DNA from: Podaxis mareebaensis
Taxonomy: Eukaryota; Basidiomycota; Agaricomycetes; Agaricales; Agaricaceae
Length of the DNA stretch: 22,491 bases
Assembly (NCBI GenBank): GCA_018524725.1
Contig: JAEUWP010000031.1
Coordinates: 1-22,491 of the forward strand
Reading direction: 5' to 3'
Positions 3,452 through 21,983 of this stretch are shown here, piece by piece. The position numbers and the translations under genes were made by a program. Positions within the stretch are counted from its first letter, which is position 1. The number at the start of each line of letters is the position of its first letter. The notes beneath the pieces were generated by a model that was not told where the DNA came from, searched no databases, and saw only the letters and a program-made list of their open reading frames with translations.

Positions 3452-4776
3452 ATGTCTCTTGAATCTCTTAACGCTTTCACTGAACTCGACAATGCTGTTA
3501 GTAATTTCCACCATCGTCTTCAATGTTTTGGGCATAAGGAGACCACCAAGACCTCTGTCTTTAATGCTCTCCAGGCAATTATCAAACCAGCAGTATGTTT
3601 CTCATGTGGGGCCTTCTATAACATTCTGGTTGACTCTTATGTATATATTTAGGACGTCTTCCTTTGTCAATTAAAGGGAGACGCGAGCACCTTAAACAAG
3701 CCCGACTTCAGCAAGTTGATCTATCGAGCTCGTCGCTCTTTCGAGTCCTGGCAAAGTGATCATGACGGGAGCTACAAGATGCCCCCCATTTATCACCAAC
3801 TCTGCCAGCTGTGTCAACAGCTTTCTCGCATCAAGACCAAGACTTCTGTTCTGACTGAAACGACTTCTAATCTTCCTGGTGGAGGTGGACCTGATAACGG
3901 ATCTGCTGGCTCGTCCACCAGTTCGGTTTCCAGTGCAGGATCCTCTGCTCCTCTGAAAAAGGTATGTGATTTTTGATTTATCTTTGGAACTCCACAGCTC
4001 ACTCCCTTCTATAGCGTCGCAGGGGAAAAGCTGCTTCTAGCGGCAATCAGGCTGCTAGCGAGGCTCCAGAAGAGGAGACTCAAATTGTCAATCTTAACCC
4101 GGCTAACAGTCTGCTTCAGTCTGTCTCTCCTCCTGAGGTAAGTATCTAATATTAGACTTTCCCCACCTCTGACAGGATTCTGATTCTCTCGCTAGGACCG
4201 CATGCACATGGACAATGCGAGTTCTAGTTCGATGCCTTCATCACTTGAGGTGCTTACTCAGGCCCCCAACTCAACTGTCCATGTTTGTACAAGTCTCTAG
4301 TTTTCACTTTATAAATCTGACTGTTCTTTATTAGACTGGTACTGCATCGGGCCCTTGCTCTTCCACCATACATCTTCCTTATGCGTTGGTCCCAGGCATG
4401 GATACTTCCAGCTGTGCTTACCAATGTGCTGTACAGCTTACCACTAGTTATCATCCTCGTGTTGTCACTGCCGAGGCTTCTAGTGATGGTAGGTTGTTTA
4501 ATTCTTCTCCGGGTCACTGTAGTACTGATATGGTTTTCTTAAGCTGCTTCTTTGTCCAAGTCCTTGCAAGGCTTCGCTGCACGAGCTGTCAAGCTCACTG
4601 AACATCTCGCTTCAACCGCTGGTAGGCTGGCTGTTGAAACCTGCCTCCTTGGCTGCAGCTCGGAGGTTGTTCAAGCTGTGGAAGATTTAGAGGTAGCGGT
4701 TTGTTGCTACCAGTACTTATCTGGTGAACAGGATAATCTCCTCAAGGCTCTCAACGGGTTGTCCATCAAGGCTTGA
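3452..4776 (+). CDS. Outer accessory gene 2: conserved element-borne protein of unknown function
   Basis: No named family recognised. Six exons stay in frame: 3452-3592, 3653-3961, 4015-4137, 4196-4282, 4335-4488, 4544-4776 (348 aa, stop TGA). The introns are 52-60 nt; the fourth has a less usual GTTTGT donor, chosen because it keeps frame and alignment. The protein has a helical-looking N-terminus (NAFTELDNAVSNF), a Gly/Ser-rich linker around residues 125-147, a basic RRR at the start of exon 3, an acidic patch before IVNLNP, the motif LPYALVPG at about 234-241, and a helical C-terminus. Inner gene 2 (11598-13021) aligns along its whole length, with exons 1, 2, 3 and 5 of identical size. No signal peptide, membrane segment or catalytic motif is visible. 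It lies tail-to-tail with the outer integrase, 183 bp away. Confidence 0.78.
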
Positions 4777-4959
4777 TTGTTACTGGTTTGACTACTCCTC
4801 ATGTACCATGTCTGTCACTACAGCTTAACACCCCACTCATCCGTATACTGCTATTAACCTCTATATCTACTGTTTGATTGTCTGACTGCATCTGAATATG
4901 ATTGTGTTGTCTGTGACCTTGGTTGTTAGTTAAGAAACCCTCACAAGGATGGTTCCTCA

Positions 4960-7206
4960 CTAGACTTCCATGTCTTCATCTGTGAGGTTATTATCTGACT
5001 CTTCTAGCATTCTAAGGGCTTTGGAATCAGTATCTAATAAACTCTTGACCTTATCATTGGACTTGATTTGTTTTCTCGCAAGGTAAGGTATGACTCTGAA
5101 GGCCGCTACCTTATTCTGCCAAACTGAACCATCCAATTCTGCTAAGATATAAGCACCACCACTTAACCATTTAATGACTACCATAGGTCCTATATACCTA
5201 GGCTTCATTTTATGATCTGCAGACATTTCAATTGCCGAATTCTTCACTAGGACCAGATTTCCAGGTCCCAGTTTGAAGTCTTTAATCTTATGCTTATAGG
5301 CTTCTTCTAATTGTAATGCGTGGGTTAACTTTTCTTCAGTTATCCTCGCGTGCATTTCTTCTACATGTGCAACATGTTTCATGAGAGCTCGTGCTCGTAA
5401 TCCAATAAGTTTGTTAGTATATATTAACTTGTCTGGATACTTAACAGGCCATGTCGCTTCTATTATGTCTAAGGGTACTGTAGGATGAGCACCCATAACC
5501 ATAAAATACAGTGAACACCCTGTTCCTTTTCTAATGGTGATACGATCCGCCCACATTACATGGTGTAGTGACCAGTACCATTTCTTAATGTCACCATTTG
5601 TTGCTTTGAACAGCATTTGTCTAAGATCCCAATGGGGTCTCTTGATAGTACCATTCACTTGTGAATTGTAAGGTGAAATGGTAACACCTTTAATTCCATA
5701 CTTTTCTGATAGCCATTTTACGGCTTTCTTAAATGGAGATCCATTATCCATGACTATTTTAACTAGCGAGCCCCATCAACAAATGATGTCTTCAAACAAC
5801 CATTGCCCAATAGACTTCGCGTTCTCTTTTCTTAATGCTCTCACTTCCATCCAGGAAGATAACCCACATTGCCCATGCACAATATAACTACATCCGTTTG
5901 ATGGTGGAGTGATATGTACCGTGTCCACGTGTAATACTTGGAATATAGACAGTGTATGTGTTACCACTGGAGGCAGTTCTAGTGCCATTTTCTGTCTGAT
6001 CTGACAAAGGTGACATGATTTAACATACCATGTGATGTCGCCTTCCATCTCTGGCCACCAAAACCTTTGGGCAATCATCTGGTTCATTGCGTAGGCACCT
6101 CTATGTCCCAATTTATTGTGACATTCTTTCATGATGCTCATGCAATTTTCTGGATCTACCACTAGTTGTGGAAAACCAGATCCAGTTGATTTTCTGTATA
6201 GTTGTCTGTCATTATCTAACCAGAAGTGTGAGGCCACTCTGATAAACTTTGCCTGTTCTGTTGTCATCCTTGTGAGGTCCAATTTCTTAGGTCCAGTAGC
6301 TAGCCATTCCCTGATTTTGTGAAGATGTTCATCCTGCATCTTGGCAGTCTGAGTTCTTCTATCCTCATCATAAGGTTCTTCACTAGCTGCTAGGTCCTCT
6401 AAGTCTTGTTCCTCTCGCAACGTTACTTTATTCAGGAATTGTCTGATGAGTATAGGACAGCTGGGATCTCTCGCGAGTATCCTTCACTGTTTAATTTCTC
6501 ACTTGGCATTTTCTTTAGCCTCTTTTAAGACCATCTGGAACTCTGAATTATCTTTGAAGAACTGCTGCAAGAATCCAGTCCTATTGTCGATTTCATCGAA
6601 GAAGTCTTCCAAGTCTAAGGGGTCCTCATTGTGAGAGTCATTCTTTACCAACTCGAAGTCTTCTCCATCATCTTCTGAACCATCATCGAACTTTCGCTCA
6701 ACAGGATCTCCTGGAAACCAGGGACATCATGAGAGTCCATCTGGACTGAAAGTCTTTCCTTTCTTATGTATCAGAGTGAAGTGGAAGTTGGTTCTGATAT
6801 AGTCTACCCAGCAATTGATCATCATGTTAGGCAATTTACCAGGATTATTCAACATTCCGAACAGATACTTGGTGTCAGTTTCAATTACTAAGTTTCTACA
6901 TCCTCTTAATAAATACGCTTCTTCTTCTAGTGCCATTCTTAACCCGCACAATTCTCACTTAGGTTGTGAATACCGCTGTTGTCTGGGATCCATTAATATG
7001 GAATTGAATTTCACATAATGAATCTGCTTAGGGTCTACATCATCGCGTTGATAGATATAATACCCTACTGCTCTCCATGAGGAGTCTACTGCCATTACAA
7101 TAGGCTGTTCACTAGGAAACTTAGGATTCCTAGTATGAAAGCATTCTTGTATCTTATCCTTCAACTGCTGTTGCATGAGCTCCTGTTCTGGTCCCCATTC
7201 AAATGG
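4960..7206 (-). pseudogene. pol: Outer pol, 3' part: RNase H and integrase, decayed and interrupted
   Basis: Minus-strand remnant of Ty3/gypsy Pol. From 7206 down it holds RNase H (AVDSSWRAVGYYIYQ, then the ELCGLRM and IETDTKYL regions), a linker, the integrase HHCC zinc finger (CHNKLGHRG... CHLCQ), the catalytic core with first Asp in LHVDTVHI and second in DNGSPF, and a GPY/F-like C-terminal module (PRYIGPMVVI) ending at TAG 4960-4962. In-frame TGA codons occur at 6955-6957, 6727-6729, 6499-6501, 6484-6486 and 5776-5778. At 6727 the inner copy encodes Arg, as expected for CGA-to-TGA decay. The third integrase catalytic residue is Lys (codon 5641-5643) where the inner copy has Glu. The frame continues across the inner insertion into 21979-22491. 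Non-functional. Confidence 0.92.
7202..7206. repeat. Target-site duplication, left copy (AATGG)
   Basis: AATGG immediately precedes the left LTR and is repeated at 21979-21983 immediately after the right LTR. Five bp is the usual Ty3/gypsy duplication length. It lies within the outer pol reading frame. Confidence 0.95.
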
Positions 7207-7580
7207 TGAAGAGGCAGAATGCGGGTGCAGTGGAGGATTAAGATGATAACTATCAAAAACTAGTATTGATCTTTTATGGGCAACCGTAAAAAGGGGGGGG
7301 GTGAAATGCTATCAATGATAATGATGCACAAAAGAGGGTTTTCTGCACAAAAGGCGAGTTCGTGGGGAGGTTATTCAGAAAAGAGGAGATTCGCTAAAAA
7401 GGGGGAACTAGCTAACGCCACACAGAAGGACGAAGGCGTTTGAATAGAGAGGAGGATGGAGTAACTACGAAGACTAACTATCATTCTGTCGACCTTTGGT
7501 GAACTGCCGCTATGCTTTCAACACAGCCATTCCACTTAACTTCAAATCTAACTAAACACAACTGCTCTGTAAGCAGCCCC

Positions 7581-7586
7581 TTTATT
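7581..7586 (-). promoter_or_regulatory. LTR polyadenylation signal (AATAAA, minus)
   Basis: AATAAA on the minus strand, about 280 bp downstream of the LTR TATA box in element orientation. In the 3' LTR it would end the genomic RNA, putting R at about 7840-7560. Positional inference. Confidence 0.45.
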
Positions 7587-7862
7587 TAGCTAGCAACCGA
7601 AAACACACTGTCTTGCACCTAAGATGCCTTGCACCTTGATACAACATCCAATATATTCTCTGTTTAAGGTTCCCTCTATGAAACCCGAGGTCTTTTTCTT
7701 AGTCAAGTGTCCCAGGGACAACATCTGATAACTGTGTTCCTCTAGTTCTCTGAAGGTTCATCCTTAGACTGTGTTGCACACAATAGATAATTGCTTAACA
7801 CAATCCTCTAGTCGCAGCGCTTTAGCCAGGGGGTTCCTTGCCTAGCACTCCCAACTGAGGCG

Positions 7863-7870
7863 TTTATATA
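7863..7870 (-). promoter_or_regulatory. LTR TATA box (3' LTR copy, minus)
   Basis: TATATAAA on the minus strand in the middle of the LTR, placing U3 at 8583 to about 7840. The same sequence in the 5' LTR (21258-21265) would drive the genomic RNA. Confidence 0.5.
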
Positions 7871-8583
7871 TTATTCAGGAAAGGTACATGAGTAAGACAA
7901 AATGCATAACATACTACAGACAATTCAGACATGGGATACAAACTCGGGGGAAAGACACATTAGACATTAGTAAAGTACTTGTGGGTCCATGCAGTTCCCT
8001 TGACCCAATTAGGTATTTTCTTCTGATGCTGCTGAGCTCCATGTGCTTTCTGCTTGGCTCAGCATTCCATACAGGGGCTGTCTGGTTCCTTCTTGTTGAT
8101 CCATCCCTGAACACCATGTGGGTGTCAGCCCGGTGCTTCTATTCTGGTTCCTGTCTCTGTTCGCTCCATCCTTCATGATCAGCTAACTCTTTGAGAGGAC
8201 ACACTCTGCTAAGCTAGGCACCTTGTGGACTCTGTTCCCTTCAACTGACCCTGAAGAGGGGATCTTAGCCCATGAGACCCTGCTTCCTGGCATTTACAAC
8301 CTACGTTTCAGCCTGACATTACCACTGATCATAGGATCTACATATGTTACTGCCACTTCAGCTAAGTACACACATTCTTCCATAGTCACAGCTAGTCAGT
8401 CATCAGGAAGGATAGTGGGGTCTTTATAGCTAGATCTCTTTTAGATGCTGGTGGGCATTGCTAATTCCTTAGGCTTTGCTGAGTAGGGTGACTCTTGCCC
8501 TCCCTAACTGAAGTACTAGCTTTTTAGCTATGTTTGAATGTTATTCAGTAGGATTCAGGCTTAGATTGGCCTGGGCTGTAACA

Positions 8584-8596
8584 TCTCCCCCTCACT
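8584..8596 (-). other. Polypurine tract of inner element
   Basis: The minus-strand sequence AGTGAGGGGGAGA is all purine except one T and directly abuts the left LTR. Ty3/gypsy elements prime plus-strand DNA synthesis from such a tract next to the 3' LTR. It fixes the element's orientation as minus, in agreement with the PBS beside the right LTR. Confidence 0.85.
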
Positions 8597-9089
8597 AAAT
8601 AATGACTGCCCTCAGTCCTCTTCTAGGTTCACTTCTGGGTCTAGTAGTTTTCCATATTGGTGTCTGCCTTTGAAGTTCCACTTCTAAATTCCGTCTCACT
8701 AATGGACTCCTTCGCAAGCAGGACAGTGATCCCTTGCTGTGGGATATCAAACTTCTGATGTGTATGGGTTGACTTCCCTGATTTGAGGCTTGAGTTTCCG
8801 TTTAGTAATCCCCTTACCTGATTTGGACAGGGCGAATACTTCACATCTGTGCACTTGTTCAGTTACATCACCACTCAGTATTTCTTTTTCTACAGTGGGA
8901 GCATAGCGCCTCACTGTCTTTTTAGGTGGTCTTCTTTCTGTTTTTTGTTTGTTCTGATGCCTGTCTGTTCTAGCCCTCGGTGGAGTTCCACCTGCATAGC
9001 CGTTTTTATGTCTTGTCCATTGTTGGGCAATAATGGCGAATTAGCTTTATGACTCAGGCAAGTTTCTATAGACTTTCGATTTTCTGTTC
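8597..9089. other. Spacer between PPT and accessory gene 1 (upstream region of gene 1)
   Basis: About 490 bp without a convincing gene. It presumably holds upstream control sequence of gene 1. No repeats or RNA genes recognised. Confidence 0.4.
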
Positions 9090-9097
9090 TATATAAA
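9090..9097 (+). promoter_or_regulatory. TATA box of inner accessory gene 1
   Basis: TATATAAA lies 52 nt upstream of the ATG at 9149, which has a strong start context (ccaccATGg). This is good evidence that gene 1 has its own plus-strand promoter, independent of the minus-strand LTR promoter. Confidence 0.65.
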
Positions 9098-9148
9098 GCT
9101 GTCATTTCAGCCTTATTGTTCCGATCTCTTCCTTCTTCTTTCTCCACC

Positions 9149-10921
9149 ATGGCCAGCAGTAAATCCAGCCTCAAGCACTCCTCGTTGCATAGTCGTAAGA
9201 CCAGCAAGTCTCCCTCGAAGTCTCGTCATCACAAGAAGTTGAAGGATCGTTCTGACAAAAGAAGGTCCAAGAGGAAGGACAGGAAGAAGAAGAGGAGGAT
9301 GGAGAGTAGCGAAGAGGAGTCTGAAGAATCCAGTTCATCTACTTCTACCTCTCTTTTCATATTTCTCTTTTTACCCCTCTTCTCTTTAGCTTCATCTAGT
9401 TCAGACACTGATGCTTCTTCTGACGAGGCCAGCATGTCATCATTGTCAGATTCTGAGTCTGATACTCCTCCTTGTAAGAAGTTGACTCGCAAGTCTTGTA
9501 AACGTGCTGCTTCAACTGATAATGACAAAGATGTCGACGAGAAAGCCAGAGCTCCTGCTCGCACGACCAGTTCTTCTCAGAAACGCAGTGCCCCGTCACC
9601 TTCTCCTGGTCCATCAGCCAAGCACCCTCACAAGCAAGTTTCCATTGCTGCTTCTGCAGCTGCTGTTAAAGGCAAGATCCCTGTGGTAGAGATCCCTGTC
9701 ACTCCTGCAGTTCCTTCTATGGCTGGAGGCAAGCCTGCCGCTGCTCCTTCCAAGGCTAAACCTGTCCCAAAAGCCAAACCTTCTCTTTCTGAACCTTTAC
9801 CAGCCCCTCCTGCTGGCTCTTCTACATCTGGTGACAAGTCCGCCACCACACCTCCCAAGGCTAAGTCTGTCCCAAAGGATAAGCCTCTTCCTCCTGAGCC
9901 TTTGTCAGCTCCTCCTGCAAACTGCTTGTCTTGTCGTCCAGGATTGCACTCAGCTGCTACTAATGCTGGGAAGGGTACTGCTCATCACTCAGGTCTGTGT
10001 TCACTCTTGGCTTCTTTTTTTTTTTCTTGCCTTTTTATCTCCTATCTAGGTACACACTGCACAGAGGCTCACCTCAAAGAGGAGTTTGGTGTTTATTCCT
10101 CAGCTCCTTTCCTGGCAATGGCTGCTCCTGCCTTTTCTATCCTGGATAGTCATGAGCTGGTGCATCTTGCCCCCCTCCCATCTCTATTCTAGGCTCATCT
10201 TTCTCATTCTATTTTAGGGTCTGGCCAGTGAGGAACGCTGCCTCAATTGTATCTGCACCTTCGCCCAGGAGTGCACACGTCATGACAACAAGGAGACCCT
10301 GTTCACTCCCTGCCAGCAATGCAAAGACAATACTGCCTCCCACTGCTCTTTTGCTAAGCCTGCCCTGATCCTTCAGTTCCAGGCAGAGGCCGCTCATTTA
10401 TTCAGTATCACCAGTGATGGCTGTGAGTACCTTGTCTGTTACTCTGCTATCTTAGTTCTTCTAACACAGGTTATCTAGACCTCTCCGATCGCCTTCGCAA
10501 TCTGACCATGGCCCATACTTCTGTTTCTGCTCTGGCTGCTCATCTTGAGCTAGCTCAAGCTCATTACTATTCATCTGTCTTTAGCTTTGCTCAGGACCTC
10601 GAAATCGCAGCCTGTTACCATGGAGCTAAGGCATCTTTCTGGGTGGACTCTGGTCTCTGTGAGACACAGGAACAGGCTGCAGAGCTCTTGGATGTCGCTG
10701 CATTCATTTCTGAGAATGCCCTGGCTGGGGGAGCTCCTGACGTCACCTACTTTGCCCATGGCTGCTTCCTCAACATTCTTCATCACCTTCATGGTGATGA
10801 CCCTCTCCAGTGGCCAGATATCCCTGTCTCCACCAATTGGGAGCGCAAGCACCAGCGCCAGGACCCAGTTCCACCATCTGAGGCTCCACCATCTGAGGCT
10901 ACTGTGATGCCTGCAGTTTGA
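9149..10921 (+). CDS. Inner accessory gene 1: basic/Ser-rich, Zn2Cys6-like cysteine-cluster protein, antisense to gag-pol
   Basis: No named family recognised. Proposed exons: 9149-9332, 9390-9992, 10050-10159, 10218-10422, 10470-10921 (517 aa, stop TGA). Intron 1 (57 nt) has a weak GTTCAT donor and contains no stop; if retained it adds a hydrophobic block in an otherwise Ser/Glu-rich region. Residues 1-50 are very Lys/Arg/Ser-rich (nuclear-signal-like); then come a Ser/acidic stretch, a Pro/Ala/Lys-rich linker with imperfect repeats, and six cysteines: C307-x2-C310-x7-C318-x12-C331-x2-C334-x7-C342. This is close to the fungal Zn2Cys6 spacing. The region after it (residues about 367-500) aligns with outer gene 1. 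The N-terminus does not resemble the coiled coil of the outer copy. A nuclear, nucleic-acid-binding role is inferred only from composition and cysteine spacing. Confidence 0.72.
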
Positions 10922-11597
10922 GTGGGTTTTCTGTACTTCTTGTCATCTTTTCTGCTCCATCTTTGTTTTATGTCTGAGTCTGTCATTTCTCGTGCTCTAC
11001 ATAGCCTGTACCCTTTTGCTTTCTATGTAGTAGCTCCTCTTGTTCTTTTCTTCTGGTTTCACTGGAAATATACGTCTCCTGGTGTTTTTGGTTAGGTGGT
11101 GTGATTACTTTTCCCCGTTTAATCTTATCTGTGTCTCCCCCTTCACTAAGAAATGGGTGTCCTCACCCATCTTTGTTGTCTCAGGTACACATGTTTACTC
11201 TGTCTCATCTTTCAGGATCTGAAGTCTACCCACTCCTTGGTCGACAAGCACCCCTTGATACATCACAGGTTGCCTTAGCCAAGGCTTCATGTGACCTTCT
11301 CCTATATTCTGCATTGGAGGTGACTCTCAGCTGTCTTCCATCATGCCTGAGGAACCATGCATTGCTAGCCAGTTGGACCTACTCACTGCTGATTCTTGAT
11401 CAGCCTTGTAGACTCTATCCCCGGTCAACTATCCTCCTCAGTCCTCATTCTGACTTTGCCAGGGTCTGACTGGTGCTTATGTCTTCCTGATCTTGGGTAG
11501 TTCCTCGGTATAAATTGTGAGCCCCCACTTCCTCTGGTTCACTCGCCTTATACCTATCTTTTATTCTTGCTCTAGTCCTCTAGCTACAACCAACGTC
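10922..11597. other. Intergenic spacer between inner accessory genes 1 and 2
   Basis: About 675 bp holding the 3' UTR of gene 1 and the promoter of gene 2. The ORF at 11101-11469 has no counterpart in the outer spacer and is not called. No RNA gene or repeat seen. Confidence 0.45.
11509..11514 (+). promoter_or_regulatory. TATA box of inner accessory gene 2
   Basis: TATAAA, 83 nt before the ATG at 11598, at the same relative position as a TATTTAAG before outer gene 2. Confidence 0.55.
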
Positions 11598-13021
11598 ATG
11601 CCTGCTGAGACCTCCAATGCATTTACCAAGCTGGATGATGCTGTCAGCAGCTTCCAGCACTGCGTAATTCGGTTTCAGCGCAAAGAATCCATGGTCAACT
11701 CTGTTTTCAGCACATTGAATGCTGCGATTCAGCCTGCCATATGTCTAGCTAAGCTTCTATGCTTCTAACGTGATTCTGACTAACATTGGTCCTGCACCAT
11801 TACAGGAGGTCTTTCTTCACCAGCTCAGTGCCAACGCTTCTGCTCTTGAAGATGCCAACAATATTAAGCTCGTTTTCTGGGCTTGCAAACTCTTTGAGAC
11901 TTGGCAGAATGATTTCAATGGTGCATTCCACATGCCCCTGGTGTACAAAAAGTTGCAAGACTTTTGTTCCCAGTACCAGTGTACCCATGCTAGAGCCAAT
12001 AAGTTGGGCTCAAGTGCCTCCACTGGTGACAGTAACTCTGTCTCTTCGGGTGGCACAAGCAACACTCCCATTTCTAAAGGATCAGCTACTGGAGGTGTCC
12101 CTCCCGCCAAGAAGGTGGGTGGCCCTTATCTGCTTCCTTTAGCTTTTCTTGTCTGACCCCATCTCTTTCTCTAAGCATTGCTGTGCTAAACAGCCTATGT
12201 CCACTGAGACGGTGGAGAACTCTGATGCTGAGGAGGACATTGAGGTCATTAACTTGAATCCAGAGGAGGCACCCCTGTGTGCTCTCTTGCCTCCTGCTGT
12301 GAGTTTCATGCCTCCTGTGTCTTTCTTCTTTCCTGACTAAGTGTTACCCTTACCAGGACGGGATGCAGGTTGATGATGTCAGTGGCCCTGCAGTCACCTT
12401 AAGTGCTACCACTGCCCCCCCTGCTCCATCCAGCCTCCAGGCTGCCGCAGACATTGTAGTTAAGGTAAATATCCCTTCCTCTCGATGCCGTAGCACCTCC
12501 CTTTCAGCGGTGGTGGGTTCTTTGGTCTTAGCCAATTATTTGGTCACTAATCATCTCTTGTTTATTCTTTGCATCCAGGAGACAGCTACAGCTGAGTCTC
12601 ATGCTGAAGTGGTGGGTCTCCCTTATGCTCTAGTTCCAGGCATAGACATCAACAGTAAAGCTTACAAAAGAGCTGTTCAGCTCATGATGGGAGCCAAGAG
12701 TGTCCATTTCACAGCTGCCACTGCTACCAAAGGTCGGTCATCCTGACTGCCAAAGACTTCGGTTTCTTAGTTAACATCCTGCTAGTCAGCCACCTCTCTT
12801 CCTCCATTCAAGGCCTCGCTGCACGGGCTTGGGAGCTTCACCATTACTATGTGAAATGTTGTAATCCTGCAGTCCTCCAACAAGCTCTCTTAGCCATCAG
12901 CACTGCTGTTGTCAAGGCTGCTCAGGAGCTCGAAGTAAGCACCCAACACTACCAGCTTCTAGCAAATGAGCAGGAGTTGTTGTCTCAACTTCTCGAGAAA
13001 GCCACTGCTTCTTCTGCCTAG
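11598..13021 (+). CDS. Inner accessory gene 2: conserved element-borne protein of unknown function (splice donor 1 probably lost)
   Basis: No named family recognised. Six exons by homology with outer gene 2: 11598-11738, 11806-12114, 12176-12298, 12357-12464, 12579-12732, 12813-13021 (347 aa, stop TAG). Exons 1, 2, 3 and 5 are exactly 141, 309, 123 and 154 nt in both copies. Shared blocks include NAFTKLDDAVSSFQ, the EVFLHQL start of exon 2, a Ser/Thr/Gly linker, EVINLNPE, LPYALVPG, and a C-terminal helical region. The intron 1 donor reads ATATGT after GCC where the outer copy has GTATGT after GCA; a G-to-A change at an ancestral CpG explains this and would retain the intron, giving a stop (TAA 11766-11768). 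The basic RRR at the start of exon 3 in the outer copy is HCC here, also compatible with CpG decay. It may therefore be a recent pseudogene. Its 3' end is only about 100 bp from the convergent integrase end. Confidence 0.72.
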
Positions 13022-14173
13022 CCTAAGCCCGTAATGTCTTTATTCCTTTTCCTTAGACAGTTTTTCTCTAGTTTGTATCTCTCAGGTACCAATAGAGTTT
13101 TTATGTCTTCAGCATCCTATGGTCATTCCTTGTCCAAGTCGTCCATATCATCCTTGGAGTCTTGTTCCACTAACTTCATCATTCCCTCCCTAGAGAGGTC
13201 GATTGCTTCTTCTATCTTCTTATCTAGCTGTATCTTCTTCCTCACCAAGTAAGGTATCACCCTAAAGGCAGCTACTTTATTCTGCCATATTGAGCCATCG
13301 AGTTTGGCTAATATGTAGGCACCCCCTTTGAGTCTTCTGATCACAACCATAGGGCCAAGATATCTCGGCTTCATCTTGCGATCCACTGACATCTCTATGG
13401 CAGAGTTCTTAACCAGCACTAGATCACCTGATTGAAAGTTATACGTTTTTATCTTATTTTTCAGCTCTTCTTCCAGCTTTAGCGTACACTTCATCTTTTC
13501 TTCTGTTATTCTCTGTCTCATCTCTTCCACATGTTTTACATGCTTAGCCAGTGCTTGAGCATGCAGACTGACAAGTTCTTCTGTAGTCACGAATCGTTCT
13601 GGGTACTTGACTAACCATGTTGCTTCTGTTAAGTCTAAAGGCAGTGTGGGGTGTGCCCCTGTCACCATGAAATAGGGCGAGCATCCTGTTCCCTTCCTGA
13701 TCGTTATTCAGTCTGCCCACATAATGTGGTGTAGGGCCCAGAACCACTTTTTTATGTCTCCCCCCATTGCCTTATATAACATCTGTCAAATGTCCCAATG
13801 AGGCCTTTCTACAGTCCCATTAGCTTGTGAATTATATGGAGATATCGTAACTCCTTTAATCCCATATTTCTCCTCAAGCCATTTTACTGCTTTTTTGAAA
13901 GGTGCTCCATTGTCTGTTACAATTTTAACTAGCATTCCCCATCTGCAGACAATGTCTTCAAAGAGCCACTGTGCAATGGCTTTTGCATTTTATTTTCTGA
14001 GTGCTCTGGCTTCCATCCATGAGGACAGGGCACATCTTCCATGGACGATATAACTGCAGCCATTAGACAGTGGAGTCATGTGTATTGTGTCTGCATGTAA
14101 GGTCTGAAATAGTGATGGAGTGTGCGTCACTACAGGGGGTAGCTCCATTGCCATTCTTTGCCTAATTTGACAG

Positions 14174-14188
14174 AGGTGACACGTTTTC
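14174..14188. repeat. LINE target-site duplication, left copy
   Basis: AGGTGACACGTTTTC; the right copy at 14839-14853 is AGGTGACATGTTTTC. One mismatch in 15, again a CpG-to-TpG difference. Duplications of this length are typical of LINE insertions. Confidence 0.9.
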
Positions 14189-14838
14189 TTTTTTTTTTTT
14201 TTTTTTTTAAATCAACATTTATTGCAATAGAGCTAGCTACTACAAACGGGTGCACGATAGCAGTCCCAATATCAAAACTAAGAGAAAAAAGAAGTTATAG
14301 AGGAAAGAGAGAAAGAAAAGTACTAGAGTGAATGAGGCTACTCTAAATATGGGTGAGATGAAAAGAAAGCGAACTAACTTAACAAAACGAGTAAAAGAAA
14401 AGGAGGAAAGAAAGAATAGAGGGGTAGGAGCAGGGAGCTAGCTACAAGGCAAAGGGAAGGAGAAGGGCCTTCAATGTACGTCCGGGACTCCGTTTCTTGC
14501 AAGTCACTCTCTACGGTTGAGGCGGCGGGTGGTGAACTCTTCCTGTGTGATGGGTCCTTGAATCTGGTCGGCGAATGAGAACGCCGCAGGGTTTTGGTCT
14601 AAGAATTGGATAACCCAATGGAAGCCATCACGGGCTCCATAAGGATAGTGAAAGCAGGGGCAAGCATTGAGTAAATGGTCGTGTGTCTCGAGGGGTTCAC
14701 TGCAGGGGCAAGAAGTGATATGGCACCCAGGGAAGAAGCGCTGTTGAAAGGCGCCGATGGGTGCGTGATTGGTAATGCAGCGAGTAAAATGTGTGCAAAG
14801 TTGGGCATTCTTTCCGAGGGGGGACTTTAGGTAAGTCC
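14189..14838 (-). mobile_element. 5'-truncated LINE (non-LTR retrotransposon) copy inside inner integrase
   Basis: On the minus strand the insert runs from 14838 to a run of 20 A at its 3' end (poly-T at 14189-14208 on plus), with an AATAAA signal at 14218-14223 just before the tail. It is flanked by the 15-bp duplication. The coding remnant (14838 to TGA 14504-14506) encodes a Cys/His pattern, C-x-C-x10-H-x5-C-x-C (CPC...HDHLLNACPCF), typical of the C-terminal tail of LINE ORF2 proteins in fungi. RT and endonuclease are missing, so this is a dead-on-arrival copy. It interrupts the integrase zinc finger between its His and Cys pairs. Confidence 0.88.
14504..14838 (-). pseudogene. LINE ORF2 C-terminal fragment (Cys/His-rich tail)
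   Basis: Open on the minus strand from the truncation point at 14838 to TGA at 14504-14506 (about 110 codons). It contains the sequence SPLGKNAQLCTHFTRCITNH followed by the CPC...HDHLLNACPCF knuckle. This resembles the post-RT/RNase H tail of Tad-like fungal LINEs, from family knowledge and not tested. The alternative minus frame 14599-14808 is a shadow of this one. Confidence 0.75.
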
Positions 14839-14853
14839 AGGTGACATGTTTTC
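14839..14853. repeat. LINE target-site duplication, right copy
   Basis: Partner of 14174-14188, 14 of 15 bases identical. Confidence 0.9.
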
Positions 14854-17557
14854 ACATACCAGACCACGTCTCCCTCCATTTCTGGCCACCACATTCTCTG
14901 GGCAATCAGTTTGATCGTCACATAGGCCCCTCTGTGGCCTAACTTATCATGGCAACTCCGCATGATGCCCATCCAATGTTCTTTGTCTATTACTAACTGT
15001 GGAAATCCACTGCCAGCATTCTTCTGGTATAGTTTTCCATCTTTATCCAACCAGAAGTGTGATGCTGCTTGCACGAACTTCAAATCCTCAGCCATCATAT
15101 GGCTGAAGTCCAGGGTTTTCATTTGGTCAGCCAGCCACAATCTGATGCATTCTAGCCTCTTGTCTTGCATCTTTGCAAGCTCAGTTCTTCTGTTCTCATC
15201 GTATGGCATCTCTTTGAGGACCTCTGACTTGTCAGCTAACCCTTCTTCTTCCAGATTAGCGACCTCATCTAGAAAGTTGCTAAGAGGTGTTGGACAATCA
15301 GTGTGGTCCACTAACCTTCGTCGCACACCAATGTCTCGTCTAGTCTCTTCTGCTACTCTTGCAAGCTCATCTTTCAGTCTCATAATCGATACTTGGGCTT
15401 GTTGGGTAAAGCCCGTTCAGGTATCAATTTCGTCATAGAACTTTTCTAAATCTAAGGGGTCTTCATCTTCTGGGTTGGCTTTTATTAACTTAAAATCCTC
15501 CCCTTCATCTTCTGACCCATCATCAAATTTTCTTTCCACTGGGTCACCTGGGTACCATCTTCTTCGAGATAGACCATCAGGCCCAAATGTCTTCCCTTTC
15601 TTATGTACCAGTTCGAAGTGAAAATTAGTCCTTATATAGTCTACCCAATGGTTGATAGTCGCATTAGGCATCCTACCCGGATTATTTATCATTCCAAACA
15701 AATATTTTGCATCCATTTCTATAACTAAGTTCCTACATCCCCTCAGGAGATAGGACTCTTCTTCTAGGACCATCCTCAGGCCACACAGCTCTTGCTTAGG
15801 CTGGGAATATCTCTGTTGTCTTTCATCCATTAGAATAGAATTAAATTTTACATAATGGATGGTCTTTGGCTCCATTTCATCCCTCTGGTATATGTAGTAT
15901 CCTACTGCCCTCCAAGATGAGTCAACAGCTAAAACGATAGGTTGGACACTTGGGAACTTAGGATTCCTTGTGTGGAAACAATTCTGTATGGCTTCTTTTA
16001 GCTTCTCTTGTGTGGCCTGCTGTTCAGGCCCCCACACAAAAGACACATCTTTCTTACAGACATTGTATAATGGAGCAGCTATGGTGACGAAGTGCGGTAT
16101 ATGGTTCCTGCACTGCACCGCCATCCCTAAGAAACTTCTAACTTCTGTGGTGTTTTTGCAGGGACCCCAACAAAGGATCTTCCCAATTGTGTCAGTAGTG
16201 GGTTTTCTTCCTTGGTACAAACAGTCAAAACTGACAATGGTGATATGATCTGCACATATCTTTGTCTTAGGGCCTGAGAACATGCCCCCACAGTACTTCA
16301 TTCTTTGCAGAATTCTATTAACCATGTTCAGGTGTTCCCATATGAATCTCCTTATCTTGGGATTTCTGTCTAGTGCTTCATAGCTTCCATCCGATTGCTC
16401 ATACTGAGTAGACGGCCCTCATATGGGTACATCATCGATGTAAGGCATTGTATATTCTGGGATTTCTTCCCTTAGAATGTAGGTAACATCGTTGTGAAAG
16501 ATAGGAACAGAATTGGTCCATCCCATGGGCAGAGTCACCAATCTTAGCGCTCCGAATGGGGTCTGGAAGGTAGTCATGTCCCTAGAAGCCTCTCCCAACT
16601 GTCGTTCATCATATCCAACATATAAATCTAACACACCATTACAGGCTCTCCCCATGAAGTGCATAGCTAATTCTTCTGTTGCAGGTGGAAGACCTGAATG
16701 CGTGATTGTTACTCTGTTTAGGGGCTCCAGACTATGTACCAGTCTTAAGCTCTTCCCATCCTTCTTTATTATGCAAAACCATTTAGAATGGTAGGATGAA
16801 TTAGAGGGTTCATAAACCCCTGCATTGATCTTTCTCTTAATGATTTTGCAGACTTCGTCATATATGGCTGGTGGTATCCTAAATGGCTTCTCCACCCACA
16901 GTGTATGGGCTATGGTAGGGATCTCTATAGGTGGAAAGTATTCCTCTTTAAACTTCCGCCTTTCCGAGTCATCCCATGCAAAGGCTTCATTGTGTTCTGC
17001 CACAAGCCAATGCACTAGCTTCAGTTCTTCTGTTGTCAGGAATCTGTCATCATGCATCAACTCCATTTTTTGCATTCTCTCAGCTGTATACCTTCCCTTG
17101 GCTACAGGCTCTGGGGGATGTATGGGCAAGATTGGGAGGTTGGACAGTGGATCTCCCTGAATCTCCCTGCAGATCCTGAATCTCTCTGGTAGCTCTCCCA
17201 AGACTGGTCTCACTTTTAGTGCGACCAGCTTGTACTTCTTGGACAGACATAATATCCCTTCTTCGGTAGACAGGCCAGCTCCCTCCTTGACTGCTACCAC
17301 TCTCCGCTCTACTCCTTCCAAACTGATGACCTGGGCAAGATAGGATTCCACTAGCTTGGCCTCAGGGACTTCTTCTCTTTCTCGCAGGGCTCTTTTCAAA
17401 TACAGTATCTTTACTTCATCTTCAGACAACACTGGAGTATTGACTGAGAGTACTTCACTAATGTGTGGCTCCTGGTCAGCATTTAGACTGATAATGCATG
17501 CAACCTCTCCTTCTACTGCGTCTTTGAAATCCTCGAGGTTACTGAAAAATTTACACC

Positions 17558-18610
17558 TCATTTCTTGGGTAGCTGCCCTCTGGGATAGGTTGGCAGCATT
17601 GTTCTTACTTTGGTGTTGGGATCAGTGAGCACTATCAACTGATTCCCATCAGCAGAGTTGACTACCCGACTCTCTGTTAGAACATCGAATGGCCTGCCCA
17701 ACAACACCCTGTAAGGTGGGTTGTCCATGACATGAACTTGCAGGTACACCACTACATCACCAAATCTGAACAGTACATTCTTAGCCAACCCACAGGTGCA
17801 GCTTATCTGGCCGTTCGCACTTTGCATATTGATGGTGATATCTGGATCCCATGCAACTTTGCATGCTATAGCTGCCTCTCTGGACATAGACACAATCTGT
17901 GAGCCACTGTCTAGGAGAGCTTCCTCTTCTCCTACATCATTTACCAAAGCAGGTATCACTTGAAGTGATGCCATATCTTTAGCTGAAAGTGAGTCTGCTT
18001 TACTAAGTGCAAAAATTTGCTTTTTCCAGGTATTGACAGGCACCATTTTTAGGTATTGTAGGACTGGGTCTGTTATTCTCCAAGTCAGGTATGGCCTCCC
18101 TTCTGGATCCAGGACCTGCTCAGAAACCCTCTCAGGCTGCCCCAGCTCTGCTACCTGAACTAGCATAGGGGCTGTCCCCTCTGCGACCTCTACATCTGCT
18201 AGACTCTCTAGCATCAGGGAATTATTGTCTATCATGACCCTTTTCTTGGCTATCATTGCCTTATATGCTTCTCAAAACTTTGGGGACATAGCTAATAATT
18301 CCTTAAGTGTAACAGTCATGTCTCCGGCTAATATTCGCTTCAGAATTTCCTCTATGTCAATTCCCTCTTCTACTTCTGCTTGGTGTTTATAAGTAGGTGC
18401 TTTCTTCTCTTCTCTGATATATCTGGCTGGTAGTGGCGGGACTTCCACCACTGGTTTCCAGACTGGAACCTTTCTGTAAGGAAAGTCTGAAACCTGTTCA
18501 GACCTTACTTTCTCTGTTTTTATCTTTTCTGGACCACTAGATATTCTGTCCTCTGATCCTGCTGGCTTCTGGAAGGTGACCTGTTTTCCAGAGGGTGGTT
18601 TCTTCATCGA
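17558..18610 (-). pseudogene. Inner retropepsin-like aspartic protease region (pro)
   Basis: Minus-strand frame lying -1 relative to gag. It begins near 18610 with a Lys/Pro/Glu-rich stretch, is cut by TGA at 18272-18274 (context fits CGA decay), and continues to TGA 17558-17560. The aspartic protease signature ALLDSGSQIVSMS is clear, with DSG at 17903-17911, followed by the hydrophobic flap and the second conserved block RVLLGRPFDVL. It would cleave the Gag-Pol polyprotein. The last TGA overlaps the ATG that opens the RT frame, which is shifted a further -1. Confidence 0.85.
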
Positions 18611-18615
18611 ACTTT

Positions 18616-20193
18616 TCAGAAATCCAAAGGTGCCTTCTTGCTAAAAGGCTCTTTCTTCTGTGCAATGTTCAGTACCCAAGCTAGCTGACTCAGCAATTCC
18701 CGAGATACCTCTCCGTCTTCTTCTTCTTCTGTTCCTACTTCTCTGGCAGACTCAGGAAAGTCCTTAGTTAGAAGTCTCTCCATCATCGACATCTTTCCTT
18801 TTAAGTTCTCTAATTCCAGGGCTCTTTGATCCATAGCTTGCCTGGTCTGTTCTATGATCACGTCTCGGTGATCCTTGACTTGGTTGGTATAAATGGACAG
18901 CTCAGGTGATTTAGTTATAGCACCAGTGTCAGGTACTTCTTCCTCTTGAGGGAGCTCTGGGATGCCCAACCATGCCACTAAGCTGGCAGGCAAGAACTTG
19001 GCTATACAAGCTTTTATCAGCATCCCCAATATCCTCAGAATGGGGGCTCCATTCGCAAAGTGAATCTGGTTCCCTTCTACCTTAATCTTCCCTTCTTTCA
19101 CATCCTGATCTTTGTGTGGGCAGGCCATCCACCTGTGGCCAAGCTCTTCACAATAGTAACAAGGGCAATCAAGCGGCGGCCCCATATTCCCACTGTTAGG
19201 GAATCCCGGCATTCTGGCTGACCCTTGGTTATAGTTAAAACTATTTGTAGGCCTTGCCATCGCTCCACTAAGTGTAGCTTTTAGTGAGTCAATATAACTC
19301 TGCATATTTTTCTGTGTAATATTCATTTGATCCTTTAATGCTGCAATTTCAGCCTGTAAGCCTTCATTGGTGGCTGATGTTTGTATTTCCACCTCCTGGG
19401 GTTCAGACTTTAGATGGGGTGGTGGCTCCCATCGTGACCCTCCAGGGCTATCATACTGCAGTGCCTTCACTATGGTTTTCCCACTGACTAAGTCCACTGC
19501 CTTCTTGATGACTTCTTTCCAATCATAGGGATCTTCACCTCTCACTAGTCCAGCCAATGTTCTGGGGCTCCCGTTCAAGCTTAATCGTGCATTCAAGCTA
19601 TCTCAGAAGTTTCTGTCTAGTGTCCCAACAAACATTTCAACTAGTTCTCTATTTGTAACCAAAGCTGGTGTTACTAGACATTTTTCTGCTACAGCTGAGA
19701 ACCTTCTTTTGAAGGCCAGCAGCCTGTCTTCTTCGCTCATAGACAGTCCCCTGTACTCTCTACATAGATTTCTGAGTCCTGTTATTGTGCCCTGTTCTAC
19801 TAGGACAAGCTCCGGATATTCAATCTTTAGGCATGCTTTAAACCCATTCCAGTTGGGTACCAGGTATTCTGTAAAGCTCGTCCATTCATCTCTGACATTT
19901 GGGTCCACATAGGTGACAGCCCATTTGACCTTTTCTTCATCAGTATTGACATGACTAATGTCAAAGTATCGCTCTAACTGCCAGAGGTACTCTCATAGTG
20001 TGGCAGGATGACCATCCCAGCTAGGTGCGCCATTGGCTAATGGCAAAGGCATAGGTGGGTAAGTCATTCTAGACAGGGTTCTAGGATTTGTACTGTTCCT
20101 AATTTGACTTCTAGCCATGCTAGACGAACTGTTTTGGGACTGTATCTCAGTCGCATTACTCTGCACCTGAGGTGTACTAGCAGTCTGTGCCAT
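18616..20193 (-). pseudogene. gag: Inner gag: capsid and CCHC nucleocapsid, with decay stops
   Basis: One minus-strand frame from an ATG at 20191-20193 to TGA 18616-18618, interrupted by TGA 19993-19995 and 19603-19605. In both the next codons continue a normal Gag protein (EYLWQLERYFD; DSLNARLSLNG), so CGA-to-TGA is likely. The retrotransposon-Gag-like capsid region covers about 20000-19500. A canonical zinc knuckle C-x2-C-x4-H-x4-C (CYYCEELGHRWMAC) lies at 19120-19161. The frame can be read upstream to about 20430 through further TGA codons, so the true start may be earlier. Gag forms the particle and packages the RNA. Confidence 0.85.
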
Positions 20194-20199
20194 TCTCAA

Positions 20200-20580
20200 A
20201 GCTGGTTGCTCCCAATCACCTGGTAACTGCTGGTGTACCTGACATGTGGCAGGTGTAGTTTCTGGGGTGTCTGTTTCCAGTGTGGAGAGATCTTCATTCT
20301 CAAGAATGTTAGGTAGCTCTGAAAGCAGAGATCAATTTCTCCTCGCTCGGTTAGCTAGCCTGATTGTCTGCTCTGGATCTTCTAAGAAGATAGGATAACC
20401 TAATCTTCTTGAATTCTGGGTTCATCTGTTCTGAGCAATCTTTGTGAAAGATACTGGTATTACTTCTGAGTGTGTTGTTCTGAGTGGATGGTTTCAAGGC
20501 CGATTCCAATTGTACTTTTTAGAAAGATAAGGTGTGGGGTTTAAGGTTGCGAATACAAGTCCTCTGTAAATCTGAAACTC
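20200..20580 (-). other. Inner element leader between PBS and gag, start of gag uncertain
   Basis: The gag frame continues upstream as plausible polar protein with TGA codons near 20335 and 20425 that may be decayed CGA, so part of this stretch may be gag N-terminus. No other gene seen. Confidence 0.4.
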
Positions 20581-20598: not shown

Positions 20599-20975
20599 GA
20601 TGAAGAGGCAGAATGCAGGTGCAGTGGAGGATTAAGATGATAACTATCAAAAACTAGTATTGATCTTTTATGGGCAACTGTAAAAAGGGGGGGGGGTGAA
20701 ATGCTATCAATGATAATGATGTGCAAAAGAGGGTTTTCTGCACAAAAGGCAAGTTCGTGGGGAGGTTATTCAGAAAAGAGGAGATTCACTAAAAAGGGGG
20801 AACTAGCTAACACCGCACAGAAGGATGAAGGCATTTGAATAGAGAGGAGGACAGAGTAACTATGAAGACTAACTATCGTTCTGTTGACCTTTGGTGAACT
20901 GCCGCTATGCTTTCAACACAGCCATTCCACTTAACTTTGAATCTAACTAAACACAACTGCTCTGTAAGCAGCCCC

Positions 20976-20981
20976 TTTATT
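20976..20981 (-). promoter_or_regulatory. LTR AATAAA signal (5' LTR copy, minus)
   Basis: Same site as 7581-7586. In the 5' LTR it lies downstream of the presumed start site and would need to be bypassed. Confidence 0.4.
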
Positions 20982-21257
20982 TAGCTAGTGACTGAAAACA
21001 CACTGTCTTGCACCTAAGATGCCTTGCACCTTGATACAACATCCAATATATTCTCTGTTTAAGGTTCCCTCTATGAAACCCGAGGTCTTTTTCTTAGTCA
21101 AGTGTCTCAGGGACAATGTCTGATAACTGCATTCCTCTAGTTCTCTGAAGGTTCATCCTTAGACTGTGTTGCACACAATAGATAATTGCTTAACACGATC
21201 CTCTAGTTGCAGTGCTTTAGCCAGGGGGTCCCTTGCCTAGCACTCCCAACTGAGGTG

Positions 21258-21265
21258 TTTATATA
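21258..21265 (-). promoter_or_regulatory. LTR promoter TATA box (5' LTR, minus)
   Basis: TATATAAA on the minus strand, mid-LTR, conserved between both LTRs. Likely core promoter for the genomic RNA, with the start about 30 bp further left. Confidence 0.5.
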
Positions 21266-21978
21266 TTATTCAGGAAAGGTACATGAGTAAGACAAAATGC
21301 ATAACATACTACGGACAATTCAGACATGGGATACAAACTCGGGGGAAAGACACATTAGACATTAGTAAAGTACTTGTGGGTCCATGCAGTTCCCTTGACC
21401 CAATTAGGTATTTTCTTCTGATGCTGCTGAGCTCCATGTGCTTTCTGCTTGGCTCAGCATTCCATACAGGGGCTGTCTGGTTCCTTCTTGTTGATCCATC
21501 CCTGAACACCATGTGGGTGTCAGCCCAGTGCTTCTATTCTGGTTCCTGTCTCTGTTTGCTCTGTCCTTCATGATCGGCTAACTCTTTGAGAGGACACACT
21601 CCGCTAAGCTAGGCACCTTGTGGACTCTGTTCCCTTCAACTGACCCTGAAGAGGGGATCTTAGCCCATGAGACCCTGCTTCCTGGCATTTACAACCTACG
21701 TTTCAGCCTGACATTACCACTGATCATAGGATCTACATATGTTACCGCCACTTCAGCTAAGTACACACGTTCTTCCATAGTTGCAGCTAGTCAGTCATCA
21801 GGAAGGATAGTGGGGTCTTTATAGCTAGATCTCTTTTAGATGCTGGTGGGCATTGCTAATTCCTTAGGCTTTGCTGAGTAGGGTGACTCTTGCCCTCCCT
21901 AACCGAAGTACTAGCTTTTTAGCTATGTTTGAATGTTATTCAGTAGGATTCAGGCTTAGATTGGCCTGGGCTGTAACA

Positions 21979-21983
21979 ATGGT
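21979..21983. repeat. Target-site duplication, right copy (AATGG)
   Basis: Matches 7202-7206 exactly. Confidence 0.95.

Follow-up and report, generated by a model that had tools for sequence, protein, structure and literature searches.

A Ty3/gypsy retrotransposon in the Podaxis mareebaensis genome carries, between its integrase and its polypurine tract, two genes encoded on the strand opposite to gag and pol. The window, which is the whole stretch of 22,491 nucleotides that was analyzed, contains this element on its minus strand (positions 7207–21978; 14,772 bp). The distribution counts, dN/dS values and intron comparisons described below all come from one genome, the P. mareebaensis assembly. 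In this family of elements selection has maintained both genes, a sign that they are of use to the element, and it is very likely that they form a conserved coding module in its service. Taken as a whole, the data are probably best explained by a clade-specific antisense accessory module, the products of which most likely regulate the cycle of the element itself; regulation, taken as a separate claim, is a tentative proposal to which we give somewhat less than an even chance.

The boundaries of the element were read from its LTRs, which are 1.38 kb long each and identical in 1335 of 1378 aligned columns (96.9%), with one gap. They begin with TG, end with CA and are flanked by a 4-bp target duplication, as is typical of Ty3/gypsy elements. 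The pol region of such elements encodes protease, reverse transcriptase, RNase H and integrase in this order on one strand, and the minus strand of the window element shows the order gag, protease, reverse transcriptase, RNase H and integrase, with only the reverse transcriptase match being weak (E 0.052). The final pol ORF stops at 13123. A PBS-like sequence starting with TGG is located just inside the right (5′) LTR. Its complement occurs at three places in the genome, including this PBS itself; ARAGORN was run on one of the other two and detected no tRNA, and no tRNA or Rfam family was found within the window. A match of the integrase tail to ATG11 (23 bits versus a cut-off of 22) was judged spurious. 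The window element (the inner element) has inserted into the pol of another Ty3 element to which it is related; this outer, older element is seen at both window ends and carries the same two antisense genes. An earlier note on this DNA had placed two plus-strand multi-exon genes between the integrase end and the polypurine tract of an element bounded by LTRs and target duplications, and both the placement and the coordinates were confirmed (Table 1).

Table 1. Features of the inner and outer Ty3/gypsy elements in the window
Feature	Position	Strand	Basis
Target duplication ATGG, left copy	7203..7206	none	sequence reading
3′ LTR	7207..8583	-	alignment to other LTR
Polypurine tract adjoining 3′ LTR, inner side	8584..8593	-	sequence reading
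Gene 1 TATA-like box, 59 bp upstream of ATG	9090..9097	+	consensus match only
Gene 1 exon 1, basic Ser-rich N-terminus	9149..9332	+	predicted splicing
Gene 1 exon 2, low complexity	9390..9992	+	predicted splicing
Gene 1 exon 3; introns on both sides recur in other subfamilies	10050..10159	+	predicted splicing
Gene 1 exon 4, six-cysteine module CX2CX7C-X12-CX2CX7C	10218..10422	+	predicted splicing
Gene 1 exon 5, predicted all-helical domain, to last base before or within stop codon	10470..10921	+	predicted splicing, model
Gene 2 TATA-like box, 89 bp upstream of ATG	11509..11516	+	consensus match only
Gene 2 exon 1; donor after it AT in 3/3 subfamily copies	11598..11738	+	predicted splicing
Gene 2 exon 2, predicted helical	11806..12114	+	predicted splicing, model
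Gene 2 exon 3	12176..12298	+	predicted splicing
Gene 2 exon 4	12357..12464	+	predicted splicing
Gene 2 exon 5	12579..12732	+	predicted splicing
Gene 2 exon 6, including stop codon	12813..13021	+	predicted splicing
Integrase C-terminal tail, SH3_Tf2-1-like	13123..13707	-	Pfam, below cut-off
Integrase zinc-binding domain H2C2	14697..15416	-	Pfam
RNase H	15417..16418	-	Pfam
Reverse transcriptase region	16419..17621	-	weak Pfam match, E 0.052
Aspartic protease	17558..18271	-	Pfam
gag region, CX2CX4HX4C knuckle, in-frame stops	18616..20331	-	ORF and sequence reading
5′ LTR	20601..21978	-	alignment to other LTR
Target duplication ATGG, right copy	21979..21982	none	sequence reading
Gene 1 of outer element	157..2460	+	start by alignment; ATG just upstream
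Gene 2 of outer element, six exons, GT donors	3452..4755	+	alignment

Gene 1 is predicted to encode 517 amino acids in five exons, and gene 2 347 amino acids in six exons, both on the plus strand. The TATA-like boxes that had been noted upstream of both genes are present as consensus matches, at the distances from the ATGs given in Table 1. None was seen upstream of gene 1 in the outer-like copies, an observation of little weight since start codons are unplaced there. The six cysteines of the gene 1 module are all kept in eight of nine readings, the protein of element C129 being one short, while in element C33 they are arranged as CX2CX6C, a loop of 32, and CX2CX7C. The N-terminus of the gene 1 protein is charged or basic, and in the C33-like and outer-like copies gene 1 also has an acidic Ser-rich tail. 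The spacing of a fungal Zn(2)-Cys(6) cluster is CX2CX6C...CX2CX6-8C. Pfam did not support membership of the corresponding family (Zn_clus, PF00172): the only hit, from C33 gene 1, scored 7.9 bits where 21 is the cut-off, and gene 1 of the window was not listed.

To define the spread of the module, loci were sorted by the identity of their integrase tails. Gene 2 was found antisense downstream of the integrase at 18/18 loci with tails at least 58% identical, and at none of 30 loci with tails at most 50% identical, the absence at the latter being determined by sequence matching except at C169 (also C47). In the sister element C169, which has identical LTRs, the module is physically missing, with the 3′ LTR starting about 32 bp past pol, and C47 gave no module match downstream of its integrase. 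At 17 of the 18 close loci gene 2 lies at a distance of 108–491 bp. A gene 1 match accompanies it at 14 of them, in 12 cases with E 0.001 or better and in two (C391 and C142) with E above 0.001 only; in 11 elements gene 1 is located within 2.1–2.9 kb. Hence, the same layout recurs in many elements, which supports the earlier claim that both genes are part of the mobile unit. Like the antisense additional ORF class aORF-3R (PMC7264820), they lie between pol and the 3′ LTR on the opposite strand, and most family members carry them. The possibility, raised earlier, that the homologs would be mainly single-copy host genes was not borne out, because 17 of 19 gene 1 loci detected at E 0.001 or better also had a gene 2 match on the contig. 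The other two, C418 and C396, were opened as candidates for an isolated host gene, and both turned out to be element fragments. Among the loci opened, with C85 and a weak C151 match left out, there was no gene copy outside such elements.

The comparison of diverged elements showed that five introns of gene 2 share both their positions (residues 47, 150, 191, 227–228, and 279 of the window protein) and their phases. This was seen in the inner element, C136, the outer element, C129, C232, and C421, the subfamilies being 34–40% identical in protein. The aligner put some introns elsewhere or at non-GT donors: the first in C319b and C28, the second in C189 (donor AT), the third in C370 (AT in C28), and the last in C33, C370, and C189; with the window protein as query, the fourth and fifth introns of C33 were displaced by 9–10 residues. 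The donor of the first intron is AT in the window copy, C136, and C342, which is all three copies of the subfamily, and GT in 10/12 elements from other subfamilies. Without splicing at this intron the gene 2 frame meets a stop shortly past exon 1. The AT donor means that in the window subfamily gene 2 has either been damaged or is spliced from a non-canonical donor, and it may be dead there. The splicing described earlier is a prediction for both genes, in line with the conserved intron places and, for gene 2 of the window, weakened by this donor.

Selection at the codon level was apparent when gene 2 of C33 was compared with that of the outer element. The exons were identical at 783/1002 positions without gaps, while the introns were identical at 174/286 with six gaps. 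The differences were distributed over the three codon positions as 64/26/131, and the coding frame was stop-free, while the other five frames contained 11–62 stops each. Among 12 pairs, gaps divisible by three made up 12/20 in exons and 5/48 in introns; the gap argument is limited to the C33–outer pair, because truncations or boundary effects account for some of the exon gaps. When C33 was set against outer-like copies, the dN/dS of gene 2 was 0.11–0.18; the values were 0.13–0.21 for the gene 1 domain inside the outer-like set, and 0.07–0.11 for the integrase tail between subfamilies. In comparisons of the window with other elements, where computable, they were 0.21–0.26 for gene 2 and 0.35–0.40 for the gene 1 domain, while for gene 1 of C33 versus the others synonymous sites were saturated and dN/dS was not computable. 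With values between subfamilies far below 1, the absence of purifying selection, which had been named as an outcome that would count against the genes, was not observed. The identities of gene 2 and integrase were also strongly correlated (r 0.97, Mantel p 0.0003; 36 pairs, 9 elements). Chance ORFs strung together as genes could be imagined, as Ser/Pro/Lys-rich low-complexity stretches stay open easily; the intron positions and codon-level selection kept across diverged elements refute this explanation, which has a negligible probability.

The same data bear on two further explanations. The region could act through antisense RNA, by dsRNA- or siRNA-mediated self-limitation, with the proteins being irrelevant, and antisense promoters and RNAs have been discussed as regulators of retrotransposons (PMC7264820). 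The codon-level selection, with the low dN/dS of gene 2, the skewed codon positions and the confinement of gaps to introns in the C33–outer pair, makes this very improbable as the sole mode of action, while RNA-level action may occur alongside the proteins. Alternatively, the genes could be passive passengers captured from the host, either transduced recently or acquired when an intron-bearing locus was inserted at the DNA level. Given their introns, the genes would not have entered as spliced sense cDNA, no viral or transposon relative was recognized in Pfam, and the window subfamily lacks a canonical first donor in gene 2, all of which would fit such an origin. The presence of the module across the clade, the purifying selection between subfamilies, and the lack of copies outside elements among the loci opened argue against it, and we consider passive capture improbable. 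The module could have originated in an ancient capture that the element subsequently co-opted.

In agreement with the earlier statement that the proteins are unrecognized, neither sequence nor fold searches gave a usable relative, and no match in Pfam, among PDB sequences or among folds speaks for a regulatory function. In a large protein set no relative was found at E 0.001 or better with gene 1 residues 280–490 as query, and none at E 0.001 for gene 2 of C33 (best 7994 word-sharing candidates scored) or for an alignment of four gene 1 proteins (best 7992 scored). Pfam gave no usable match for either gene, and paralogy between gene 1 and gene 2 was not detected. The gene 1 profile matched one of the PDB sequences with E 0.049, which was not credited. 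Two-row alignments served as input for AlphaFold models, whose confidence was low (mean pLDDT 67.5 for the helical exon of gene 1 and 69.6 for exon 2 of gene 2), and Foldseek returned no PDB match at E 0.001 for either of them. Instead of acting as regulators, the proteins could have a structural or life-cycle role, being envelope-like, capsid-associated, or involved in the nuclear import of the integration complex. Such roles have been discussed for additional ORFs of plants (PMC7264820), basic stretches were seen by eye in both proteins, and the first cysteine pair of gene 1 resembles a gag knuckle in a very weak profile match (probability 16.7%), from which a gag-knuckle origin was not accepted. 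An envelope role is unlikely, because no membrane-like segment was detected in the four proteins tested (best 19-residue hydropathy 0.74–1.43), while the observations do not discriminate between regulators and factors for import or assembly. Overall, a structural role appears rather unlikely, and yet it is the most serious of the alternatives.

Under the preferred reading of a regulatory accessory module, a Ty3/gypsy clade would have gained the two-gene opposite-strand module between integrase and 3′ LTR and kept it since. Transcription of both genes would run towards pol, probably starting at promoters of their own close to the 3′ LTR, and the host would splice the transcripts. Gene 1 would most likely be a nuclear nucleic-acid-binding regulator of element expression or silencing, and gene 2 its helical partner. 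The antisense introns would survive each round of copying, because the genomic RNA is the other strand and has no splice sites there; the module thus illustrates how introns on the unpackaged strand can persist in an RNA-mobile element.

HBZ of HTLV is a spliced, regulatory antisense gene. It is comparable to the genes described here in that it encodes a protein on the strand opposite to the sense genes, with expression driven from the 3′ LTR (PMC10186651); HTLV is a human retrovirus, and the comparison concerns the way of working. In plants, antisense genes between pol and the 3′ LTR are present in maize Grande (gene23, with its own promoter and a nuclear product), rice RIRE2, and PvRetro13 (PMC7264820), and their likeness to genes 1 and 2 is positional. 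Antisense TRP28 ORFs of the plant Retand lineage have a proposed regulatory DNA-binding role, and the word "intron" is absent from the accessible part of that account (PMC11963269); genes 1 and 2 differ from them in having no Pfam match to TRP28 (PF04195).

The fungal precedent found is one family, Boty, whose gene brtn was reportedly the subject of a 2011 study by Zhao et al. The available portions of three sources describe brtn as an antisense gene of Boty/BcGypsy1 of Botrytis cinerea (PMC8365987, PMC4227169, PMC7264820), and the Boty ORF, also present in Sclerotinia, is listed among antisense ORFs between pol and the 3′ LTR (PMC7264820). Boty resembles the window element in being a fungal LTR element that has additional coding sequence antisense to gag-pol, but it has one gene and belongs to ascomycetes, whereas here there are two multi-exon genes; the likeness is one of layout. 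No two-gene antisense module was found in the literature searched. Antisense genes in this position have precedents in Retand, Grande, and Boty, while two spliced, conserved, and exchanged ones look like a novel form of the arrangement. To the usual summary of gag and pol the clade adds a set of genes that have introns, are coded in the opposite direction and are constrained only somewhat less than integrase.

Elements that are otherwise about 90% identical have exchanged gene 1. In four pairs measured, elements with this identity from the gene 1 stop through gene 2, and in the integrase tail where compared, had gene 1 DNA identities of 0.61–0.74. Within the same gene 2 subfamily, synonymous divergence in 16/20 pairs was 0.59–2.81 or saturated for gene 1 versus 0.17–0.33 for gene 2, and in the remaining four pairs it was 0.27–0.37 for gene 1. 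One gene 1 class (C31, C357, C370, C129) was found across two element subfamilies. It is conceivable, if speculative, that gene 1 is a swappable specificity module, deciding recognition of the element's own promoter, in copy-number control, of a target or of a host silencing factor, with rare versions being favored; the retrotransposon would then carry its own equivalent of a diversified regulatory locus, antisense and with introns. The diverged subfamilies, the exchanged gene 1 classes and the module-less sister clade form a comparative set for testing the function of antisense ORFs.

The window copy itself is damaged. Its gag and pol contain several in-frame stops, and a LINE-like insertion with a 15-bp target duplication interrupts the integrase region. 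Within subfamilies the dN/dS of gene 2 was raised to 0.24–0.51, and to 0.56 for the inner element versus C136. This is read as the decay of dead copies, mostly at CpG: among 5576 sites of 8584–14180 compared between the inner element and C136 there were 257 differences, 250 of which were transitions and 235 of which lay in a CpG-type context.

The window holds a Ty3/gypsy element with LTRs of ~1.38 kb that are identical at 1335 of 1378 columns of their alignment, a polypurine tract, and protein domains in the order protease, RT, RNase H, integrase, bounded by an ATGG target duplication. This main element is inserted in the pol of another Ty3 element related to it, pieces of which lie on both flanks. 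The outer element belongs to another subfamily and has a gene 1 and a gene 2 of its own, these being the multi-exon genes antisense to gag-pol between integrase and polypurine tract. The gene 1 protein of the main element combines a basic, serine-rich N-terminus with a long proline/lysine-rich stretch, a module of six cysteines and a helical domain. Its N-terminus is highly charged, and its C-terminus acidic and serine-rich, in the other two subfamilies, C33-like and outer-like. The gene 2 protein is short with a basic patch, and a structure model of its second exon suggests that it is partly helical. Pfam gave no recognised family for either gene. A very weak profile match (probability 16.7%) was seen between the gag knuckle (18616-19602) and the first cysteine pair, in exon 4 of gene 1.

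Features of the nested elements, in window positions
Feature	Position	Strand	Description
Main Ty3 element	7207-21978	minus	LTRs, target duplication, domain order
Outer Ty3 element	1-7206 and 21983-22491		pol DNA ~69-74% identical to main element
Gene 1	9149-10921	plus	five exons, 517 aa, predicted
Gene 2	11598-13021	plus	six exons, 347 aa, predicted
LINE-like insertion	14188-14839	poly-T run on plus	integrase region, 15-bp TSD

The 36.95-Mb assembly (429 contigs, one of them the window) was searched for further copies, here given C-numbers. This assembly has 19 hydrophobin and 25 DUF6534 matches, families that had none in any of 14 control genomes; both are consistent with a fungus, and DUF6534 with Agaricomycetes. 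The gene 1 protein matched further loci at 27-36% identity, and gene 2 exons mostly at 28-56%. Of 58 integrase-tail matches, 48 were compared with the gene 1 and gene 2 loci; the ten dropped were seven second pieces of loci already counted and three with E > 0.003 (C118, C19, C323), at which the gene 2 genome search gave no match. The data showed a gene 2 match downstream of the integrase, on the opposite strand, at all 18 loci with an integrase tail at least 58% identical, at a distance of 108-491 bp in 17 of them and 13 kb in C31. A gene 1 match was also present at 14 of the 18 (C391 and C142 at E > 0.001), 2.15-2.89 kb from the integrase at 11 and 10.7-16.0 kb at three. The latter are C31, C98 and C319, where the long distances are presumably due to later insertions. 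Neither gene was found within 20 kb at any of the 30 loci with an integrase tail at most 50% identical, and no gene 2 match lay in any other arrangement within 3 kb at the 48 loci. Five of the 23 gene 2 loci at E 0.001 or better had no integrase-tail match (C342, C357, C81, C422, C85); of these, C342 is truncated and C357 ends shortly past gene 2. Because divergence could hide the module from sequence matching, the 3′ end of C169, from a sister clade (loci L051 and L059), was opened. Its LTRs are identical (447 bp) and its 3′ LTR begins ~32 bp after pol, so the antisense module is physically absent. The identical LTRs and the long open pol frame show that this element is very young. In C47, no match was seen downstream of the integrase.

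Antisense extra genes as a kind are already known: antisense TRP28 ORFs occur nearly throughout Retand, according to PMC11963269, and brtn, the antisense gene of Boty from Botrytis cinerea, is cited in PMC8365987 and PMC4227169. The titles and abstract openings of the papers listed, which included few from subscription journals and probably no Repbase reports, mentioned no module of two spliced antisense genes in an element of a basidiomycete. As far as can be judged, this clade therefore has a new form of a known kind, one that is modular and has two intron-rich genes.

Introns were placed with a purpose-written protein-to-genome aligner. The five gene 2 introns agree in residue and phase among the inner (main) element, C136, outer, C129, C232 and C421; in C33, three keep their residues and the other two lie no more than ten residues away. 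They differ between elements in length and sequence. The gene 1 introns near residues 263 (phase 1), 298 (phase 0) and 388 (phase 1), numbered as in C33, are shared by C33, outer, C232, C421, C319a, C98a and C81, the second being absent from the C129 model. The window gene 1 has introns at residues 263, 299 and 368 with matching phases, and residue 368 stands opposite residue 388 of C33 (alignment A1, read by eye). Between C33 and outer, gene 2 exons are identical at 783 of 1002 bases with zero gaps, and introns at 174 of 286 with six gaps. The gene 2 dN/dS is 0.14 for this pair and 0.11-0.18 for C33 versus C129, C232, C421, C319b and C189. For the gene 1 domain it is 0.13-0.21 for outer versus C232, C421, C319a, C98a and C81; for C33 versus the others, saturation of synonymous sites makes it uncomputable. 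The integrase tail gave 0.07-0.10 between C33 and outer-like copies. Comparing the window copy with the other subfamilies gave, where computable, 0.21-0.26 (gene 2) and 0.35-0.40 (gene 1 domain). Stops numbered 11-62 over the two sequences when the same bases were read in the other five frames. Gene 2 and integrase-tail identities covary (r 0.97, Mantel p 0.0003; 36 pairs, nine elements).

The main element has two close copies in the genome, which complete its subfamily. C136 is full length, 95-96% identical, and lacks the LINE-like insertion; C342 is truncated and 89% identical. That insertion has a cysteine-rich LINE-type 3′ end, as judged by eye. The window copy is damaged by this insertion and by in-frame stops in gag and pol, and has undergone strong methylation-type mutation, as seen in its CpG observed/expected ratio of 0.28 (7207-21978) and its differences from C136, 235 of 257 of which are CpG-type transitions (8584-14180). 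Because the differences are mostly of this type, the two copies were probably nearly identical when inserted. The first gene 2 donor (11739-11740) is AT, not GT, in all three copies of this subfamily, and GT in 10 of 12 elements from other subfamilies (outer, C33, C129, C232, C421, C189, C370, C31, C357, C422); in C319b and C28 the aligner placed this intron elsewhere. The AT would be accounted for if a GT donor had decayed at a CpG. Alternatively, as all three copies have it, one at only 89% identity, the subfamily may have lost gene 2 or may use a rare AT-AG intron.

As their life cycle would imply, intron-bearing genes in an RNA-mobile element could survive only on the antisense strand, since it is the opposite strand that is packaged as RNA. 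All three subfamilies have A/T-rich boxes ~-87 to -90 of gene 2 (sequences read by eye), which suggest that this gene may be transcribed from its own promoter, and a TATA-like box precedes gene 1 in the window's subfamily. No membrane segments were found in the proteins tested; with the cysteine module and charged ends, this would suit nuclear proteins binding nucleic acid or chromatin. These same features lead us to favor, tentatively, by a narrow margin and at somewhat less than even chance, a role of genes 1 and 2 in regulating transcription or silencing of the element itself over a somewhat less likely one as assembly or import factors.

Gene 1 is a mosaic, exchanged between otherwise ~90% identical elements. 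Along outer versus C421 and C129, gene 1 DNA identity is 0.52-0.72 in most 200-base windows, and versus C232 it varies more (0.56-0.94). From about the gene 1 stop codon onward, all three comparisons give at least 0.80, and mostly near 0.9 in gene 2 and the integrase tail. Synonymous divergence is in agreement, with values for gene 1 and gene 2 of 1.40 and 0.20 (outer-C421) and of 2.12 and 0.18 (C33-C31).

DNA identity by region for element pairs
Pair	Gene 1	Spacer	Gene 2
Outer vs C421	0.67	0.88	0.91
Outer vs C422	0.74	0.86	0.91
C33 vs C370	0.61	0.90	0.92
C33 vs C31	0.61	0.91	0.91
C33 vs C28 (contrast)	0.89	0.93	0.92
C370 vs C31 (contrast)	0.87	0.90	0.91

The gene 1 tree of 11 elements groups C129 with C31, C357 and C370 (support 100/100), so that one gene 1 class is common to two element subfamilies. 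It rejects the gene 2 subfamily C33+C28+C31+C357+C370 (p-AU 6e-5), and gene 2 rejects the C129+C31+C357+C370 group (p-AU 1e-44; 11 elements), but both values are descriptive only, because the gene 2 tree is poorly resolved, with no starred branch and support of 77/100 for that subfamily, and because the groups were chosen after the distances were known. A neutral route to such exchange exists, namely a single template switch within the spacer between the two genes during minus-strand synthesis. In the retroviral mechanism this synthesis begins at the 3′ end, so one switch is enough for a hybrid with LTR and gene 1 from one parent and gene 2 and pol from another. The low C33-C370 identity upstream of gene 1 (0.45) is consistent with this route; the outer-C421 identity of 0.90 in the 100 bases just upstream of gene 1 is not. 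Mosaic gene 1 was seen at loci L025, L026, L050, L020, L062 and L065 (outer, C232, C421, C129, C33, C31, C370).
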